Assembly: GCA_030632625.1 (NCBI GenBank)
Contig: DAOVUK010000016.1
Coordinates: forward strand, 1 to 15,598
Length of the DNA stretch: 15,598 nt
Direction: 5' to 3'
Source: Gammaproteobacteria bacterium
GTDB taxonomy: Bacteria; Pseudomonadota; Gammaproteobacteria; GRL18
Shown: positions 1,060 through 15,598 of the stretch, in pieces
How the letters are laid out: every line of letters starts with the position of its first letter
Position numbering within the stretch: position 1 is the first letter of the stretch
Made by a program: the position numbers and the translations under genes
The notes under the pieces: generated by a model
What the model was told of the DNA's origin: nothing
Database searches by the model: none
Seen by the model: the letters and a program-made list of their open reading frames with translations, nothing else

Positions 1060-2190
1060 TTGAGTGAAGATCTGAAACAAATACGTGATCAAATAGATGA
1101 TCTGGATCAGCAGATTCAGTTATTATTGAATCAACGTGCCGCTTGTGCTCAGAAGGTAGCCGATGCCAAATTATCAGACATTGCTGATGGCGAAAGTGTT
1201 ACCTTTTATCGCCCTGAACGTGAAGCATCTGTATTACGTAAGGTCATGGCACGTAATGAAGGCCCTATCAGTAATGAAGAAATGGCACGTCTTTTTCGTG
1301 AAGTGATGTCTGCCTGTCTGGCACTTGAGCAACCCATGAAAATTGCTTTTTTAGGACCTGAAGGCACCTTTACTCAGGCGGCAGCTTTAAAGCATTTCGG
1401 TCATTCTGTTAAAACAATTCCTTTTTCAAGCATTGATGAAGTATTTCGTGAAGTAGATGCCGATTCCTGTCACTATGGTGTGGTACCCGTTGAAAACTCA
1501 ACAGAGGGCGTAATCAGTCATACTCTGGATATGCTGATAGAGTCTCACCTGAAAATATGTGGTGAGGTTTCACTGAGAATTCATCACTATTTAATGGGCA
1601 GGCAGGATTCACTCGATAAAAATGCACCCATAAAGAAAATTTATTCTCACCAGCAGTCTCTGGCACAATGTCGGGAATGGCTTGGTAGTCATCTGCCGGG
1701 CATCGAACGCATTGCGGTCAATAGCAATGCAGAAGCTGCTCGACTGGCATCCACAGAAGCAGGTGCTGTTGCCATCGCCAGCAGTGCTGCTGCTGAAATT
1801 TATCAGCTGAATTTGCTGGCGGAAAGAATTGAGGATGAACCGGATAACACCACTCGTTTTATAATTCTGGGAAAACAGCAAGTCGATTCCAGCAATTCTG
1901 CAATAAATAGCCATTCATCAGAGAAGTCATTTGATAAAACTTCCATTATGGTGACTTCAGCCAATAAATCGGGTGCTTTGCATAATTTACTTAAGCCTAT
2001 TGCCGAAAACGGCCTGTCAATGACGAGAATTGAGTCCAGACCCTCAAAAAGTGGTTTATGGCAGTATGTGTTCTTTATTGACATTGATGGTCATTCATCT
2101 GATCCTGCTGTTGCTAAGGCCTTGCGGGAAATAAAAAAACAATCAAATCTGTTAAAAATACTGGGCTCCTATCCAAAGGCTGTTTTGTAA
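1060..2190 (+). CDS. pheA: Bifunctional chorismate mutase / prephenate dehydratase (P-protein)
   Basis: Converts chorismate to prephenate and then phenylpyruvate for phenylalanine synthesis. The 376 residues match the family length. An AroQ-type chorismate mutase helix bundle covers about residues 1-90. The prephenate dehydratase domain covers about 93-270, with VPVENSTEG (142-150) and the catalytic-Thr motif TTRF (264-267). A Ser/Asn-rich linker (about 275-291) leads to an ACT domain with the phenylalanine-binding motifs GALHNLL (305-311) and ESRPSK (325-330), so feedback inhibition by phenylalanine is expected. The start is TTG at 1060, behind the Shine-Dalgarno-like AAGGGA at 1048-1053; no ATG gives the full mutase domain. 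The stop TAA overlaps the hisC ATG by one base (TAATG), which points to translational coupling. Confidence 0.97.
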   Translation: MSEDLKQIRDQIDDLDQQIQLLLNQRAACAQKVADAKLSDIADGESVTFYRPEREASVLRKVMARNEGPISNEEMARLFREVMSACLALEQPMKIAFLGPEGTFTQAAALKHFGHSVKTIPFSSIDEVFREVDADSCHYGVVPVENSTEGVISHTLDMLIESHLKICGEVSLRIHHYLMGRQDSLDKNAPIKKIYSHQQSLAQCREWLGSHLPGIERIAVNSNAEAARLASTEAGAVAIASSAAAEIYQLNLLAERIEDEPDNTTRFIILGKQQVDSSNSAINSHSSEKSFDKTSIMVTSANKSGALHNLLKPIAENGLSMTRIESRPSKSGLWQYVFFIDIDGHSSDPAVAKALREIKKQSNLLKILGSYPKAVL

Positions 2191-3320
2191 TGAAGCAGCC
2201 GCAAGCAGTAGATAGTATTGCTCAGCTGCAGCCTTATATTCCCGGTAAACCTGTTGATGAGCTGGAACGTGAGTATGGTGTAAAAAATGCCGTTAAAGTT
2301 GCTTCAAATGAAAATCCTCTCGGGCCCAGTCCAAAAGTGATTGCCCACCTGAATCAGTTATTATTAAATCCACTGGAATTAGCCCGATACCCAGATGGTA
2401 ATGGCTTTATTCTAAAGAACAAACTGGTTGACAAACTTTCAGCGGTTAAACAGAGTATATCTGCTGAGCAGATCACTTTAGGTAATGGTTCAAATGATAT
2501 ACTGGATTTATTAGCCAGAACTTTTGCGGCTAAAAACGATGAAGTTATTTTTTCACAATATGCCTTTGCTGTTTATCCTATAGCAACTCAGGCCGTTGGC
2601 GCTACAGCGGTTATAACAACGGCGACTGACTGGGGTTATGATCTGGATGCAATGCTTGATGCCATAAGTGAACAAACCCGTTTAATCTTTATTGCTAACC
2701 CGAATAATCCAACGGGTACCTGTTTGTCAGCCACTGATTTGCTGCATTTTTTGCACCAGGTTCCTGAACATATCGTGGTTGTGATTGATGAAGCTTATGA
2801 AGAATATGCTGCCAGTTCAGATTTCTGTGAAGATTATCATTCAATGTTAGCAACATTGAACCAATTCGACAATCTGGTCATAACTCGCACTTTTTCTAAA
2901 GCCTATGGGCTGGCCAGCTTTCGAGTGGGCTATGCTGTTTCATCAATATCTATTGCTGATTTACTTAATCGAGTCAGACAGCCCTTTAACAATAATACTT
3001 TTGCGCTTGAGTCGGCCGCAATCGCGCTTGATGATCAGCAGCATATTCGTCAATGCGTTGAACTGAACCGGCAGGGAATGTCCTATCTGGTGAATTGTTT
3101 CACATCGCTTGGTTTAAGCCATATACCATCCGCAGGCAACTTTGTCTGTGTGAAAATAGGTGCAGAATGTGCCCAGGTCTATGAGAAATTGCTTTATGAA
3201 GGTGTAATTACCCGGCCTGTTGCCAATTATCAGATGCCGCAATATTTAAGAATATCCATTGGTACTATGGCCGAAAATCAACGGGTTTTTGCGGCGCTGA
3301 AAAAAATACTTAGCTGCTGA
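2190..3320 (+). CDS. hisC: Histidinol-phosphate / aromatic aminotransferase (HisC family)
   Basis: A fold-type I PLP aminotransferase of 376 residues. The phosphate/PLP-contact segment GNGSNDIL (98-105), ANPNNPTG (169-176), VIDEAYEEY (198-206), the PLP lysine K237 in TFSKAYGLA and the C-terminal carboxylate-binding Arg in LRISIG are all present. The family transaminates imidazole-acetol phosphate in histidine synthesis. In the gammaproteobacterial aromatic supraoperon the copy between pheA and tyrA (HisC2/HisHb) is a broad-specificity enzyme that also handles phenylpyruvate and 4-hydroxyphenylpyruvate. I infer that role here because both keto-acid-producing enzymes sit on either side. It is coupled by one-base overlaps to pheA upstream and to tyrA downstream (TGATG). 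No other his genes are in view. Confidence 0.95.
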   Translation: MKQPQAVDSIAQLQPYIPGKPVDELEREYGVKNAVKVASNENPLGPSPKVIAHLNQLLLNPLELARYPDGNGFILKNKLVDKLSAVKQSISAEQITLGNGSNDILDLLARTFAAKNDEVIFSQYAFAVYPIATQAVGATAVITTATDWGYDLDAMLDAISEQTRLIFIANPNNPTGTCLSATDLLHFLHQVPEHIVVVIDEAYEEYAASSDFCEDYHSMLATLNQFDNLVITRTFSKAYGLASFRVGYAVSSISIADLLNRVRQPFNNNTFALESAAIALDDQQHIRQCVELNRQGMSYLVNCFTSLGLSHIPSAGNFVCVKIGAECAQVYEKLLYEGVITRPVANYQMPQYLRISIGTMAENQRVFAALKKILSC

Positions 3321-4225
3321 TGATATCCCCACAAAAAAATATAAAAATTAAGCATCTGACCATCATCGGTGTGGGCCTTATCGGCGGTTCATTTGCCAGG
3401 GCTCTGCGTCAGGCAGGCATGGTTGAGCATATCAGCGGTTGTGGTCGAAGTAGTGAAAATCTTCAAAAAGCACTGGATTTAGGCGTGATAGATGATTTTT
3501 TTCTGGATATTAAAGATGCAGTAAAAAATGCTGATCTTATATTTATTGCCACGCCAGTGGGCAGCTTTCAACAAATTTTATCGCAAATTAAAAATGCTAT
3601 GAAAAACGGTGCCATCATTACCGATGCCGGCAGTACAAAGTTCAGTGTGATTGAGGCTGCACAGTCTGTATTTAATGAAATTCCAGAAAATTTTGTCCCC
3701 GGTCATCCTATTGCCGGTACTGAAAATAGTGGTGTAGAGGCTTCATTTTCCGAGCTTTATCAGAATCATCGGGTTATTCTGACACCTGTTGAACAAACCA
3801 GTGCTGCTGCTGTTGAACTTGTTTCTCAGCTATGGACATCTATTGGTGCTCAGGTGGTCATAATGGAAGCCCGTCACCATGATCTTGTCCTGGCTGCAAC
3901 CAGTCATTTGCCCCACCTGCTGGCATTTTCTCTGGTTAACACCTTAACGACCCTGGATGAAAAACAGGAAATTTTTGAAAATGCTGCGGGGGGCTTTAGA
4001 GATTTTACCCGTATTGCTTCGAGTGATCCCTCCATGTGGCAGGATATTTGTCTGGCGAATAAAAACGCCTTATTGGAGCATCTGGATCTTTTTACTCAGG
4101 ATTTACAAAAGTTACGTACAGCCCTTGAGCAAGGCGATGGTGATTTTTTAAAAGAAACATTTGTTCGCGCCAAACAGAGCCGGGATCATCTGGTAGAAAA
4201 TAGTATAGAGAAAAATAGTGAATGA
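3320..4225 (+). CDS. tyrA: Prephenate (cyclohexadienyl) dehydrogenase
   Basis: Oxidatively decarboxylates prephenate (or arogenate) to 4-hydroxyphenylpyruvate (or tyrosine). It has 301 residues and a stand-alone TyrA fold: Rossmann motif GVGLIGGS (17-24), ATPVG (77-81), TDAGSTK (101-107) and the active-site histidine segment GHPIAGTENSG (128-138; H129), then a helical dimerisation domain. There is no chorismate mutase domain, as expected with PheA supplying that activity, and no C-terminal ACT domain. The segment after the second strand (GCGRS) lacks the acidic residue typical of NAD-specific enzymes, so I do not assign NAD or NADP. In Pseudomonas the related gene is fused to aroA; here it ends normally and two genes separate it from aroA. 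Confidence 0.95.
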   Translation: MISPQKNIKIKHLTIIGVGLIGGSFARALRQAGMVEHISGCGRSSENLQKALDLGVIDDFFLDIKDAVKNADLIFIATPVGSFQQILSQIKNAMKNGAIITDAGSTKFSVIEAAQSVFNEIPENFVPGHPIAGTENSGVEASFSELYQNHRVILTPVEQTSAAAVELVSQLWTSIGAQVVIMEARHHDLVLAATSHLPHLLAFSLVNTLTTLDEKQEIFENAAGGFRDFTRIASSDPSMWQDICLANKNALLEHLDLFTQDLQKLRTALEQGDGDFLKETFVRAKQSRDHLVENSIEKNSE

Positions 4226-4757
4226 AGACAAAACACTGACAATTCAGGTTAATCCAAAACAATTAGATTCTTTTTGCAAAAAAATTATTTCCCGTTCCCG
4301 AAATACAGCAAATATTCACCAAGCTTTAATCGTCTTAGAAGCTTTTATCAGTGCCTTTTCCAGTGACTCACAGGGTGCAGATAATTATCAGAATATTCAG
4401 CAAACTCTGAAATCTCATTCCTTAAAAACCCGTGAGCTGCTCATGCAGGAAAAAACACAGCAGCTGAAACAGGGCTTATCGACGCAAAACATGATGCTAT
4501 TAGCAGATGTCTATGGTTCACTTTCCAGAAATGGTTTTTATCAGATTTTATCCACGGCTACTGAGCAAATTGTTCGTTCTCAAATACCTTCTATTGCTGA
4601 ATGGGTGATCGCCTGGGCAGGTGAAGCAAAACAAAAAGCAGAACAGGCCAGTGGTTACCCGGATGCTCTGGATTTTAAAAAAGCTGATATCGATATTGAA
4701 CAATATCAGGCGATGACTGATATTGCCTACTTTTTTAATAACACCTATAAATATTAA
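4218..4757 (+). CDS. Uncharacterised 179-residue cytoplasmic protein in aromatic operon
   Basis: I do not recognise this family. The gene starts with GTG at 4218, eight bases inside tyrA, and ends nine bases before the next gene, so it is almost certainly expressed as part of the operon. The protein is rich in Gln, Ser and Lys and looks largely alpha-helical, with no signal peptide, membrane segment or metal-binding cysteine cluster. There is one Cys near the N-terminus (FCKK) and aromatic-rich helices near the C-terminus (IAEWVIAWAGEAKQKAEQ; AYFFNNTYKY). No purely intrinsic evidence reveals a function. Its place between tyrA and an IMPase-like gene suggests a lineage-specific addition to the operon. 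There is no in-frame ATG near the start, so the GTG call rests on the overlap and on codon continuity. Confidence 0.75.
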   Translation: MNEDKTLTIQVNPKQLDSFCKKIISRSRNTANIHQALIVLEAFISAFSSDSQGADNYQNIQQTLKSHSLKTRELLMQEKTQQLKQGLSTQNMMLLADVYGSLSRNGFYQILSTATEQIVRSQIPSIAEWVIAWAGEAKQKAEQASGYPDALDFKKADIDIEQYQAMTDIAYFFNNTYKY

Positions 4758-4766
4758 CGAGAAATA

Positions 4767-5552
4767 ATGATAGATATCAATAAAATAGAAGACATTATTA
4801 AAACTGTTTCTAAGGAAGTTCTGATGCCTTACTTTAGTAAGGTACAGGCTCAAACAAAATCTGATGGTTCATTGATTACTCAGGCAGATATTGAAGTTCA
4901 GGATTGTATTAAGTCTGAACTGTTAAAATATTTTCCAGAATATGGTTTTTTTGCTGAGGAACTGTCTGAAGATGAATTAAACTCATTTTTATTAAAAAAT
5001 CACTCAGGTTACTGGTGTCTTGATCCCATTGACGGCACCAGTAATTTTGCTTCAACATTACCTTATTTTTCAATTTCACTAGCATTAATCATTAATGGCC
5101 AGACTATTTTTGGCTTAATCTATGACCCTGTTCGTGATGAATGCTTTACAGCCTTAAAAGGTGATGGTGCCAAACTCAATAGTCGGGCTATTATTCGACC
5201 CAAAGCACCTGAAACTCTAAAAGAATGTCTGGCTATAGTGGATTTTAAACGTTTACCTGCTGAACTTTCAGTAAAACTGGTCTCTCAAGCGCCTTATCGT
5301 TCGCAACGCAGTTTTGGTTCGGTTGCATTAGATTGGTGCTGGCTGGCAATGGGCAGAGTTGATATTTATCTTCATGCTAAACAAATGTTATGGGATTATG
5401 CTGCAGGATTATTGATTGCTGAAGAGTCCGGTTGTGTTAGCTGCACTATGGATGGTGAAGCTGTTTTTAAGGAATCATTAGTACCCAGAAAAGTGATTGC
5501 CAGCACTAATGATGTATTGCAAAAACAATGGCTTGCAGTTATTATCTCATAA
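4767..5552 (+). CDS. Inositol monophosphatase family phosphatase
   Basis: A Mg2+-dependent, Li+-sensitive-type phosphatase fold of 261 residues, the normal length for SuhB/IMPase/HisN-like enzymes. The metal-binding signatures are all present: EE at 64-65 (FAEELSE), DPIDGT at 86-91 and WDYAAG at 209-214. The substrate cannot be read from sequence. Family members hydrolyse inositol-1-phosphate, histidinol phosphate (HisN type), 3',5'-bisphosphoadenosine or fructose-1,6-bisphosphate. The neighbouring HisC-family gene makes histidinol-phosphatase activity thinkable, but the aromatic context gives no strong support. ATG at 4767 follows a modest ACGAGAAA Shine-Dalgarno-like stretch. It lies in the operon, 37 bases before the aroA start chosen here. 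Confidence 0.9.
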   Translation: MIDINKIEDIIKTVSKEVLMPYFSKVQAQTKSDGSLITQADIEVQDCIKSELLKYFPEYGFFAEELSEDELNSFLLKNHSGYWCLDPIDGTSNFASTLPYFSISLALIINGQTIFGLIYDPVRDECFTALKGDGAKLNSRAIIRPKAPETLKECLAIVDFKRLPAELSVKLVSQAPYRSQRSFGSVALDWCWLAMGRVDIYLHAKQMLWDYAAGLLIAEESGCVSCTMDGEAVFKESLVPRKVIASTNDVLQKQWLAVIIS

Positions 5553-11733: not shown

Positions 11734-12213
11734 ATGTCATTTATTCAAACGAGACATTCAATTTTGATCATCAGTATCATAAGCGCTGCTATTATATGGT
11801 TCGGAGAGTCGCTGCTTCATTTTTCCGTTCTGGATCAGGGACAATTGTTTGAATTATTTCCAAATGACTCCAATGAGCTTTGGATGCGAGCAATCATCTG
11901 CGGTCTGATCATAATATTTGGAATCTATATCCAGAGACATACTAATCAAAAGCTGGACCTGGAAGCAGAGAAAATGCGTACTCTCAAAGCCACTATGAAC
12001 ACCGTTCATGACCTTGTAGGTAATTCACTTGCTGGAATTAAGTTATTGTTAGCTAACTCTGAAAAAAATGATATCGTAGATATAGAGACACATAAAAAAC
12101 TAATAATACTTATAGATGAGACATTTGCAAGCCTGAGAGATATTTCCAATATAGAAGCTTTAAATGAAAAACAATTTCACAATGATATTTATCATTTGGA
12201 ACTTGATAAATAG
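11734..12213 (+). CDS. Small two-helix membrane protein with a kinase-dimerisation-like helix, no ATPase domain
   Basis: A 159-residue protein with two membrane helices (about 9-31 and 50-66), then a cytoplasmic helical region: EAEKMRTLKATMNTVHDLV, GNSLAGIKLLL and, after a linker, LIILIDETFASLRDISNIEA. This arrangement recalls the DHp hairpin of a sensor histidine kinase, with a histidine in VHDLVGNSL, but there is no N/G-box ATPase domain and the protein ends soon after. From memory, similar short proteins with a conserved MRTxKATMxTV core occur widely in gammaproteobacteria without an assigned function; I offer no function. AGGAAA at 11719-11724 lies nine bases before ATG. It sits between a MITE-like element and IS-end-like sequence, and its stop codon abuts the latter. 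Confidence 0.7.
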   Translation: MSFIQTRHSILIISIISAAIIWFGESLLHFSVLDQGQLFELFPNDSNELWMRAIICGLIIIFGIYIQRHTNQKLDLEAEKMRTLKATMNTVHDLVGNSLAGIKLLLANSEKNDIVDIETHKKLIILIDETFASLRDISNIEALNEKQFHNDIYHLELDK

Positions 12214-12689: not shown

Positions 12690-13550
12690 TCATTCAGCTG
12701 TTGAATTTATAAGATACATAGCTTCAAGCAATGAAGGCATTTCTTTGGTAAATTGCCCGAACCAACGTGAATAAATTGATATAATTTTGCCATTCCGATT
12801 CAGTTCAGATAAGACCCGATCTGCAAGCAATCTAAATTCAGAATCATTTTGTCTCACAGCTAGAGCAAAAGGTTCATATGAGAAAAGTTTCTTGGCTATC
12901 GCAAATTGCTTTGGGTTTTCATGAGTCGTTGCAAGTCCAATCAGTACCACCTGATCAGATGAAAAAGCATCTACCTTTCCTTTAACCACTGCATTCATGC
13001 CTTCTGCTGCAGACTTGACTGAAATTACTTTTGCATTACTTTTTGCAGACTTCAGAGCCTTTGTTAAAGTTTTTATCGTAGTAGTGTCTTTAACTACTGC
13101 AACCTTTTTGTCCTGAAGATCTGAAATACTATTGATTTCAGAAGATTTTAAACTAAGTAATGAAGCACCTGTTATAAATGAAAGTTGTGTAAAATCGACC
13201 AGTTCTGCACGTGAATGAGTTTTAGTTGTTGACCCACACAGTATATCAATCGAGTTATTTTCCAGAGCTTTAAAGCGGTTAGAAGCAGTAACAGGTACAT
13301 ACTTAATCGCAATATTAGGATTTTTCAACTTACGCTTTACTTCAGCAGCAATACGCACACAGAGTTCAATAGAATAACCGACAGGTTGATTGTCTTTATT
13401 TAAAAATGACATTGGTGGTTCGTTTTTGCGATAGCCTATACGAAATGTCTCTGATTTTTTTATACTCTTAAGTGTTGAGCTAGTATCTGCGAGAGATATC
13501 CCTGAAAACAACATTGAGAATACAGTAATAGTTACAAATAGATGTTTCAT
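12690..13550 (-). CDS. Periplasmic polar-amino-acid-binding protein (SBP_bac_3 family), orphan
   Basis: A 286-residue extracellular solute-binding protein of the amino-acid ABC transporter type. A signal peptide (MKHLFVTITVFSMLFSGISLA) is probably cut before DTSS. The mature part shows the family core: FRIGYRKNEPPMSF, GYSIELCVRIAAEV, NRFKALENNSIDILCGSTTK, SDLQDKKVAVVKDTTT, a second lobe with VDAFSSDQVVLIG, and LSELNRNGKIISIYSRWFG near the C-terminus. The CGSTTKTHSR stretch resembles glutamate/aspartate binders such as GltI, so an acidic amino acid is a reasonable ligand guess. No permease or ATPase gene is adjacent, so it serves a remote transporter or works as a sensor. The AAGGAAA Shine-Dalgarno (minus strand, near 13554-13560) supports ATG 13550. 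The upstream small gene on the same strand ends 28 bases earlier, so they may share a transcript. Confidence 0.9.
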   Translation of the reverse strand: MKHLFVTITVFSMLFSGISLADTSSTLKSIKKSETFRIGYRKNEPPMSFLNKDNQPVGYSIELCVRIAAEVKRKLKNPNIAIKYVPVTASNRFKALENNSIDILCGSTTKTHSRAELVDFTQLSFITGASLLSLKSSEINSISDLQDKKVAVVKDTTTIKTLTKALKSAKSNAKVISVKSAAEGMNAVVKGKVDAFSSDQVVLIGLATTHENPKQFAIAKKLFSYEPFALAVRQNDSEFRLLADRVLSELNRNGKIISIYSRWFGQFTKEMPSLLEAMYLINSTAE

Positions 13551-14638: not shown

Positions 14639-14709
14639 TGGGGGAGTTTTTTGAACTAATGGTAAGCACAAGCTGTTTGTACTGTTGTTATCCATGAAGC
14701 CTGTACTCG

Positions 14710-14820
14710 TGATACTTGGAAATGCAGCGAGGCATTTTGACTTAGAGCCGATTGAATGTATAAGTACTACATGATTGAGGCTTTAAGTTAAAATAACGAA
14801 GTATGCACTTCCAAGTATCA
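14710..14820. mobile_element. 111-bp imperfect palindrome, MITE-like
   Basis: Perfect 12-bp ends, TGATACTTGGAA (14710-14721) and TTCCAAGTATCA (14809-14820), continue inward as a second inverted pair, ATTTTGACTTAGAGCC (14734-14749) and GGCTTTAAGTTAAAAT (14779-14794), 14 of 16 matched. If the ends are extended four bases (CTCG/TGGG, partly matched), TA dinucleotides flank both sides (14704-14705, 14825-14826), as expected for an IS630/Tc1-type MITE; that is inference. Its right end supplies an ATG at 14820 in frame with the next gene. Confidence 0.6.
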
Positions 14821-14840
14821 TGGGTATAAAAGTCATAAGA

Positions 14841-15598
14841 ATGAATAGTAAATCACAAATCAATAAAGATACGATCAGAGTTCTATTAGTAGATGACCAT
14901 GCGATGCTGCGTAAAGGAATGGTGCTGCTTCTGGGTGAAGAAAAAGATATCATTGTTGTGGGTGAAGCAGGTGATGGTGAGGAAGCCATAGAGCAGGCCT
15001 GTAAGTTAGAGCCCAATATCATTTTAATGGAAATTACCATGCTGCGACTCAATGGCATTGATGCGACGCGGCAGATTGTTTCCAGATTTCCTGATATTAA
15101 AGTCATTGCATTTTCTACTCACTCTGCCAAACTCTATATTGATGATATGCTCAGTGCAGGTGCACGTGGCTACCTTTTGAAGGATAGTGACCCTAAGGAA
15201 TTGTTACAGGGTATTCGAGAAGTGATGCGTGGTAACATGTATCTCAGTCATGCGATTACTGCTCGAGTTCTGGAGTCCTATGTTGATCAGATAATTGATA
15301 AGCCCTTAGAAAGTAGGTTGAAAGAAGATGTGGGCATTTTACGAACTAAGCTGCACCCACCGCCAATCATGCCTGATCTGGTTCTACGGCAGCGTCTGAA
15401 CGATTATCTGAATGCCGGGAGGGTACAGCCTTTAATCCTCATTTCAGCGCCAGCAGGCTATGGTAAAAGCATATTGGCTAGCAGTTGGCTTAAGGAATGT
15501 GATTGGCCAGCAGCCTGGATTTCATTGGATGAGGGTGATACTGATTTACGCCAATTTCTACTTTACTTTATGGCTGCTATTGAGGATATTTTTCCAGA
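14841..15598 (+). CDS. Receiver domain joined to MalT-type STAND ATPase, 3' end outside window; Glu at phosphosite
   Basis: The frame is open from ATG 14841 to the window end (252 residues visible). Residues 12-130 form a NarL-type receiver domain: LLVDDHAMLRKGM with the acidic pair D18-D19, AFSTH (S92/T93) and LLKDS (K114). The phosphoacceptor position in NIILMEITM is Glu64 (GAA at 15030-15032) instead of Asp. A NarL-like linker follows (SHAITARVLESYVDQ), but instead of its helix-turn-helix the protein enters a MalT/LuxR-type ATPase: ILRTKLHPPP, then Walker A APAGYGKS (203-210) and AWISLDEGDTD. From family knowledge, TPR-like repeats and a C-terminal LuxR DNA-binding domain probably follow. 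The in-frame ATG 14820 is an alternative start; neither start has a clear Shine-Dalgarno. A TATAAA lies at 14825-14830. Confidence 0.8.
   Translation, partial: MNSKSQINKDTIRVLLVDDHAMLRKGMVLLLGEEKDIIVVGEAGDGEEAIEQACKLEPNIILMEITMLRLNGIDATRQIVSRFPDIKVIAFSTHSAKLYIDDMLSAGARGYLLKDSDPKELLQGIREVMRGNMYLSHAITARVLESYVDQIIDKPLESRLKEDVGILRTKLHPPPIMPDLVLRQRLNDYLNAGRVQPLILISAPAGYGKSILASSWLKECDWPAAWISLDEGDTDLRQFLLYFMAAIEDIFP

Follow-up and report, generated by a model that had tools for sequence, protein, structure and literature searches.

Does the gene at the end of this stretch of DNA really join a NarL-type receiver to a MalT-type STAND ATPase in a single protein, and if so, by which input would such a regulator be driven? 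The window (the whole stretch of DNA analysed, 15,598 nucleotides) is the entire contig G000:C255 of a genome assembled in 533 contigs with a completeness of 81.56%, and it stops inside the gene because this contig ends there. On the plus strand, the reading frame starts at ATG 14841, or at an upstream ATG (14820), and is free of stops up to the window end (14841..15598). An earlier note had reported a receiver running into a MalT-type ATPase, and this observation is confirmed: the receiver is matched by Pfam Response_reg (1e-24), and the tail of the window aligns to MalT (8bob, E 7e-9). Directly 5' of the gene, a palindromic, MITE-like repeat (14704-14829, arms of 23 nt, 87% complementary) includes the alternative start, and about a dozen near copies of it (94-99% identity) are found elsewhere in the genome.

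One gene across a contig end

The gene continues on contig C90 of the same genome (G000:C90, from 4603 down to 1970, minus strand). The last 205 bases of the window (15394-15598) overlap positions 4401-4605 of that contig with 7 mismatches, which suggests two strain variants within the assembly. Read beyond 15598, the C90 frame (877 open codons) goes on with the NTPase, a MalT-like TPR sensor (PF17874, 88.6 bits for a cut-off of 45) and a C-terminal LuxR-type helix-turn-helix (GerE, PF00196, 60.2 bits for a cut-off of 23.5), so that all the domains for which a search had been advised (Response_reg, MalT-type ATPase, TPR_MalT and GerE) were matched.

Could this fusion be a chimera of the assembly, or two separate genes meeting at a contig end? 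The window does stop at such an end, and its overlap with C90 is imperfect, but both parts are carried in one chain by P0012, a 1069-aa database protein from a 10,782-base contig, with 255/259 identities to the window part and 867/877 to the C90 part (98-99% for each half of the gene); since it covers the two, they form one gene. Moreover, homologues of the same domain order run uninterrupted in two genomes of the same genus (G011, 1048 aa; G012, 1059 aa), a third one (G006) holds a piece cut by a contig end and 96% identical to P0006, and the small protein encoded after the C90 part is the same as in these three genomes. Altogether, 4 of 16 genomes of the genus, own genome counted, gave a match at E<=1e-60. 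A frameshift or a join at the linker was looked for, as the earlier note had proposed, and none was found; its other ground for refutation, a lack of homologues with this domain order, is contradicted by these genomes. The intact proteins P0012, G011 and G012 thus rule out an assembly chimera at the linker, and an artefact at the contig end is barely conceivable. That the C90 frame belongs to a separate paralogue is possible in principle, given the mismatches; P0012 is the best fit to both parts among the proteins listed, and a search of the own genome, at its stated completeness, found no other copy of the gene. The receiver-STAND fusion is real.

The receiver (14874..15233, P0012 residues 19-138) has the receiver fold, with NarL as its closest solved structure (1a04, E 1.1e-24), and is followed by a linker (15234..15338, residues 139-173) taken as the gap between domain matches, with approximate boundaries. 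At the place of a NarL-style helix-turn-helix comes the start of the STAND NTPase (15339..15598, the remainder being on C90), and MalT 8bob aligns to P0012 residues 175-590. The NTPase motifs are intact, including Walker A (APAGYGKS, 15447-15470, also read on C90) and Walker B (LLVLDDY, on C90). With 340 bits, P0012 falls below the cut-off (537) of the NCBIfam MalT model NF003420, and is therefore not MalT itself.

Is this architecture uncommon, as the earlier note held? The answer depends on where it is sought. With residues 1-330 of the G011 protein (receiver included) as query, 928 database matches were obtained, and by our own count 118 of the 120 listed have both PF00072 and PF25873, so that the receiver-MalT order is not rare among the listed relatives. 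Among 369 genomes sampled from the class, where scoring was limited to two candidates in each genome, the claim stands: four gave a match at E<=1e-90, own genome included, and of the other three only G175 has a full-length protein with the receiver (1/369 besides the own genome). The 23 genomes searched in the family of G175 added no other full-length match with a receiver at E<=1e-100. A contig scan examined the best 80 of 586 confirmed loci and found six with a receiver, in Gammaproteobacteria (L042, L043), Desulfobacteraceae (L044, L047), Bacteroidetes (L048) and an unplaced bacterium (L045); because similarity to a receiver-bearing alignment set the ranking of these loci, 6/80 is not a frequency. 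Five are whole; in the sixth (L047, from a Desulfobacteraceae MAG), receiver (2112-2672) and ATPase (2708-5335) lie in separate frames, which points to a split gene or to an error in its sequence. A literature search covering titles and abstract openings, with most subscription papers outside its scope, found no receiver-MalT fusion, and the available part of an actinobacterial LuxR census names REC+LuxR and AAA+LuxR proteins, and none with both (PMC3466318).

A receiver without its phospho-acceptor aspartate

The receiver had been described as complete. It is indeed NarL-like, and it is not complete: in the alignment with NarL, a Glu (codon GAA, 15030..15032, P0012 residue 71) lies under the Asp of LILLDLNMP, which we take to be the phosphorylation site of NarL. 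The domain is in consequence an aspartate-less receiver. The other pocket residues are in place, namely the Asp-Asp acid pair (14892..14897, residues 25-26), the switch Ser (15114..15116, residue 99), the Tyr (15171..15173, residue 118) and the conserved Lys (15180..15182, residue 121).

How often, and where, has the aspartate been lost? Among 120 listed relatives, the phospho-acceptor position is Asp in 103, Glu in 9, Ala in 4, Gly in 2 and Thr in 1, with a gap in the remaining one. In a tree of long proteins (at least 1000 aa; 84 of 121 possible rows, with P0113 and P0114 dropped as poorly aligned), 13/13 non-Asp rows fall on one side of a single branch (SH-aLRT 100), and none of 500 label shuffles gave a value as low. 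In a second tree of 119 rows, including short ones, 14 of the 16 non-Asp rows form one clade (SH-aLRT 99) within which the lineage of the window is placed, and the two others, P0059 (on a long branch) and P0116, lie outside, so that the family as a whole has lost the aspartate on more than one occasion. The two trees were built by a quick method, with SH-aLRT as their sole support and midpoint rooting for drawing. Six of the 14 clade members have no Glu (2 Gly, 3 Ala including P0032, and 1 Thr, P0003).

Within the 13 full-length non-Asp rows, Ser and Lys are kept in 13/13 (70/70 for both in Asp-bearing rows) and Tyr in 12/13 (69/70), the first acid is kept in 12/13 (the other being a gap) and the second in 9/13, and the residue preceding the switch Ser has changed from Leu (67/70 Asp rows) to Phe (12/13). 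Section 7 of a survey of aspartate-less receivers (PMC4395418) gives Glu as the commonest replacement (26%), with Ser/Thr kept in 61%, Tyr/Phe in 66% and a basic residue at the Lys position in 70%; by our own comparison with these values, the clade retains its switch residues better than the average of that survey.

Branch lengths inside the Asp-less clade were divided by those of the rest of a fixed topology of 40 rows (13 non-Asp, 27 Asp), which gave 0.65 for the receiver (0.55-0.78 over 20 resamplings, of columns only), 0.29 for the NTPase (0.26-0.31), 0.29 for the winged-helix/arm region, 0.28 for the TPR (0.25-0.30) and 0.15 for the helix-turn-helix. Of these five domains, the receiver changes most slowly outside the clade (5.74 vs 8.42-17.71), and inside it ranks second fastest (3.73, the others ranging from 2.41 to 4.00). 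Likewise, for pairs whose remaining sequence is 45-55% identical, receiver identity is 55% in the clade (21 pairs) vs 68% among Asp rows (241 pairs). Measured against the other domains, the clade receiver thus changes at about double the pace seen in its Asp-bearing kin; it is relaxed, yet no freer than the remainder of the protein.

Gene neighbours: a kinase in relatives and a small downstream protein

The earlier note had supposed a two-component input. For the Asp-bearing relatives this fits well: among the six receiver-fused loci with room upstream, a PAS-HisKA_3-HATPase kinase lies directly upstream in five (L042, L043, L045, L047 and L048; not in L044), and the same holds for G012, giving 6/7 Asp-bearing receiver-fused loci, the Asp being present in all seven. 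The kinase model was built from the six kinases later counted (five loci and G012), which favours finding them, and domains were assigned by Pfam. Receiver-less MalT ORFs with room upstream have a directly adjoining kinase in 0/66 cases. Asp-bearing relatives therefore probably add a kinase-controlled receiver to a MalT-like core.

For the protein of the window the supposition fails, as a Glu takes the place of its acceptor and the window yielded no histidine kinase: a search with the model of the relatives' kinases gave no match at E<=10, and on the C90 side the gene adjoins the small protein, an exchanger and a carbonic anhydrase rather than a histidine kinase. In the clade, kinase input appears to have been cut. 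Only at the window's locus is the upstream side of an Asp-less gene readable, the contigs of G011 and G006 ending too early, so that the pairing of aspartate loss with kinase loss is a single case, and a kinase for this regulator could be encoded elsewhere in the genome. Elsewhere in the window are a lone SBP_bac_3 solute-binding protein (12690-13550, minus strand), close to the regulator, and a 159-aa protein (11734-12213, plus strand) that has no Pfam match and to the eye resembles a pair of membrane segments plus a kinase-like helix containing HDLVGN; the kinase upstream of L048 has an SBP_bac_3-type domain fused to it.

Downstream of the gene, C90 encodes an 88-aa protein (1545-1811, minus strand), a Na+/H+ exchanger (PF00999) and the first part of a carbonic anhydrase, whose best match among solved structures has E 5.2e-14. 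In G011, the small protein is followed by a SulP-type permease (PF00916) and a ParB-like protein, and in G006 by an RND pump: transporters are found downstream, yet they differ in kind. The small protein itself recurs. It lies on the same strand within 1.5 kb downstream in 47 of the 80 MalT ORFs with more than 600 bases downstream. In 22 whole genomes, chosen for holding MalT relatives, it is present in 18 (four are without it); 63 of its 83 copies follow a same-strand MalT match at a distance of up to 2.5 kb, where a simple density estimate expects 0.29, and 77/83 are within 10 kb of such a match. Conversely, 63 of 129 MalT matches have it (139 rows minus 10 second pieces of genes already listed). 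Among 299 genomes of the phylum, it was found in the own genome only. Its 120 listed homologues (of 937) include none with a Pfam domain, those with a name being hypothetical proteins, and the literature search, at the scope given above, found no small MalT neighbour. A ferredoxin-like fold is predicted (beta-alpha-beta-beta-alpha-beta, mean pLDDT 82.9); among the nearest structures are ACT domains, the PII-like proteins SbtB and CPII, and ribosomal S6, the likeness to each going no further than a common arrangement.

Judged from gene position, the small protein is a putative partner of the regulator. Tentatively, MalT-type STAND regulators of several phyla may use a dedicated downstream partner of about 88 aa (predicted ferredoxin-like, ACT/PII-like), and in the lineage of the window this partner, together with the TPR sensor, may have replaced phosphorylation as input, the receiver having lost its Asp and surviving as a phosphate-independent switch. 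The conserved neighbour is a candidate for a missing partner of MalT-like regulators in several phyla. As to the organism, the HisC encoded in the window has its closest organism-named matches in gammaproteobacterial symbionts of Bathyaustriella (80%), with those of Lucinoma (76%) and Gigantopelta (73%) ranking lower.

What the receiver may do, and how it compares with known systems

What, then, is an Asp-less receiver doing on a STAND regulator? We lean, by a small measure, towards a MalT-type STAND factor derived from kinase-paired receiver-STAND ancestors, in which phospho-Asp was replaced by Glu and the receiver was kept as a phosphate-independent module, with an inducer on the TPR sensor as input. 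The ancestor would have been a regulator made of a receiver, an NTPase switch, a TPR sensor and a LuxR helix-turn-helix, run by an adjacent PAS-HisKA_3 kinase; in the lineage of the window, phospho-Asp would have given way to Glu and the kinase input would have been cut, and without a phosphate-accepting residue the receiver probably works without a partner kinase. In MalT, an inducer that binds the sensor and the arm opens the NTPase from its ADP-closed form ahead of nucleotide exchange; the protein then multimerises, and its resting form is maintained by inhibitor proteins (PMC4381067, PMC6468293). As the NTPase motifs are intact here, a similar core mechanism is plausible, an inducer on the TPR sensor leading to an ADP-to-ATP change and oligomerisation. 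The receiver may at first have been active-like through its Glu, and later kept for dimerisation or docking. The Na+/H+ exchanger and alpha-carbonic anhydrase genes just downstream would probably be targets of the regulator, and its likeliest protein modulator would be the small neighbour of predicted ferredoxin-like fold.

The faster change of the receiver counts against this explanation, as it is also expected of a decaying relic, functionless since the loss of the kinase, in what would effectively be a plain MalT-type regulator. The loss of Glu itself in some clade members points the same way. A relic nevertheless seems unlikely, for the domain is present in 14/14 clade members (P0021 and P0032 begin late in the alignment and are perhaps incomplete), the Ser and Lys are retained along with nearly every Tyr, and the absolute rate of the receiver stays inside the range of the other domains. 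Less probable still is a receiver held constitutively on by Glu as a standing phosphomimic, with sensor input alone setting the output. According to the same section of PMC4395418, this commonest of replacements can activate without phosphate, and the acid pair and Lys are retained in the window's receiver, but Glu alone is often insufficient (PMC4395418), and members with Gly, Ala or Thr still keep the domain; since these are six of 14, such a phosphomimic cannot be essential clade-wide. An ordinary phospho-switch, on which an unlinked kinase or acetyl phosphate would still act, agrees with the otherwise well retained fold and pocket, yet lacks its acceptor Asp and any kinase match in the window, and is very improbable.

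The family amounts to a natural rewiring experiment, in which an Asp-bearing form next to its kinase stands against a derived Asp-less clade with the remaining protein kept. It allows a test of whether receivers gate STAND ATPases in the first place, which would connect two large classes of signalling protein. The earlier interpretation is partly supported.

Compared with known systems, the protein shares with MalT of E. coli (a STAND, LAL-type LuxR regulator) the NTPase, the TPR_MalT region and the C-terminal LuxR helix-turn-helix, and differs from it by the N-terminal receiver. With NarL-type response regulators it has in common the receiver sequence and the pocket residues apart from Asp, but Glu stands for phospho-Asp, and a STAND core follows the receiver, the helix-turn-helix coming about 860 residues later. 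The Asp-bearing receiver-MalT regulators (G012, P0027 at L042, P0043 at L043) have the same domain order and a similar length (about 1050-1140 aa); unlike the window's protein, they keep the Asp and mostly sit (6/7) directly behind a PAS-HisKA_3 kinase. Finally, as in the aspartate-less receivers of PMC4395418 (RitR, ChxR and others), phospho-Asp is replaced, mostly by Glu in that survey, while Ser/Thr, Tyr and Lys are kept; here, in a combination that the available text of PMC4395418 does not contain, such a receiver is joined to a STAND ATPase.
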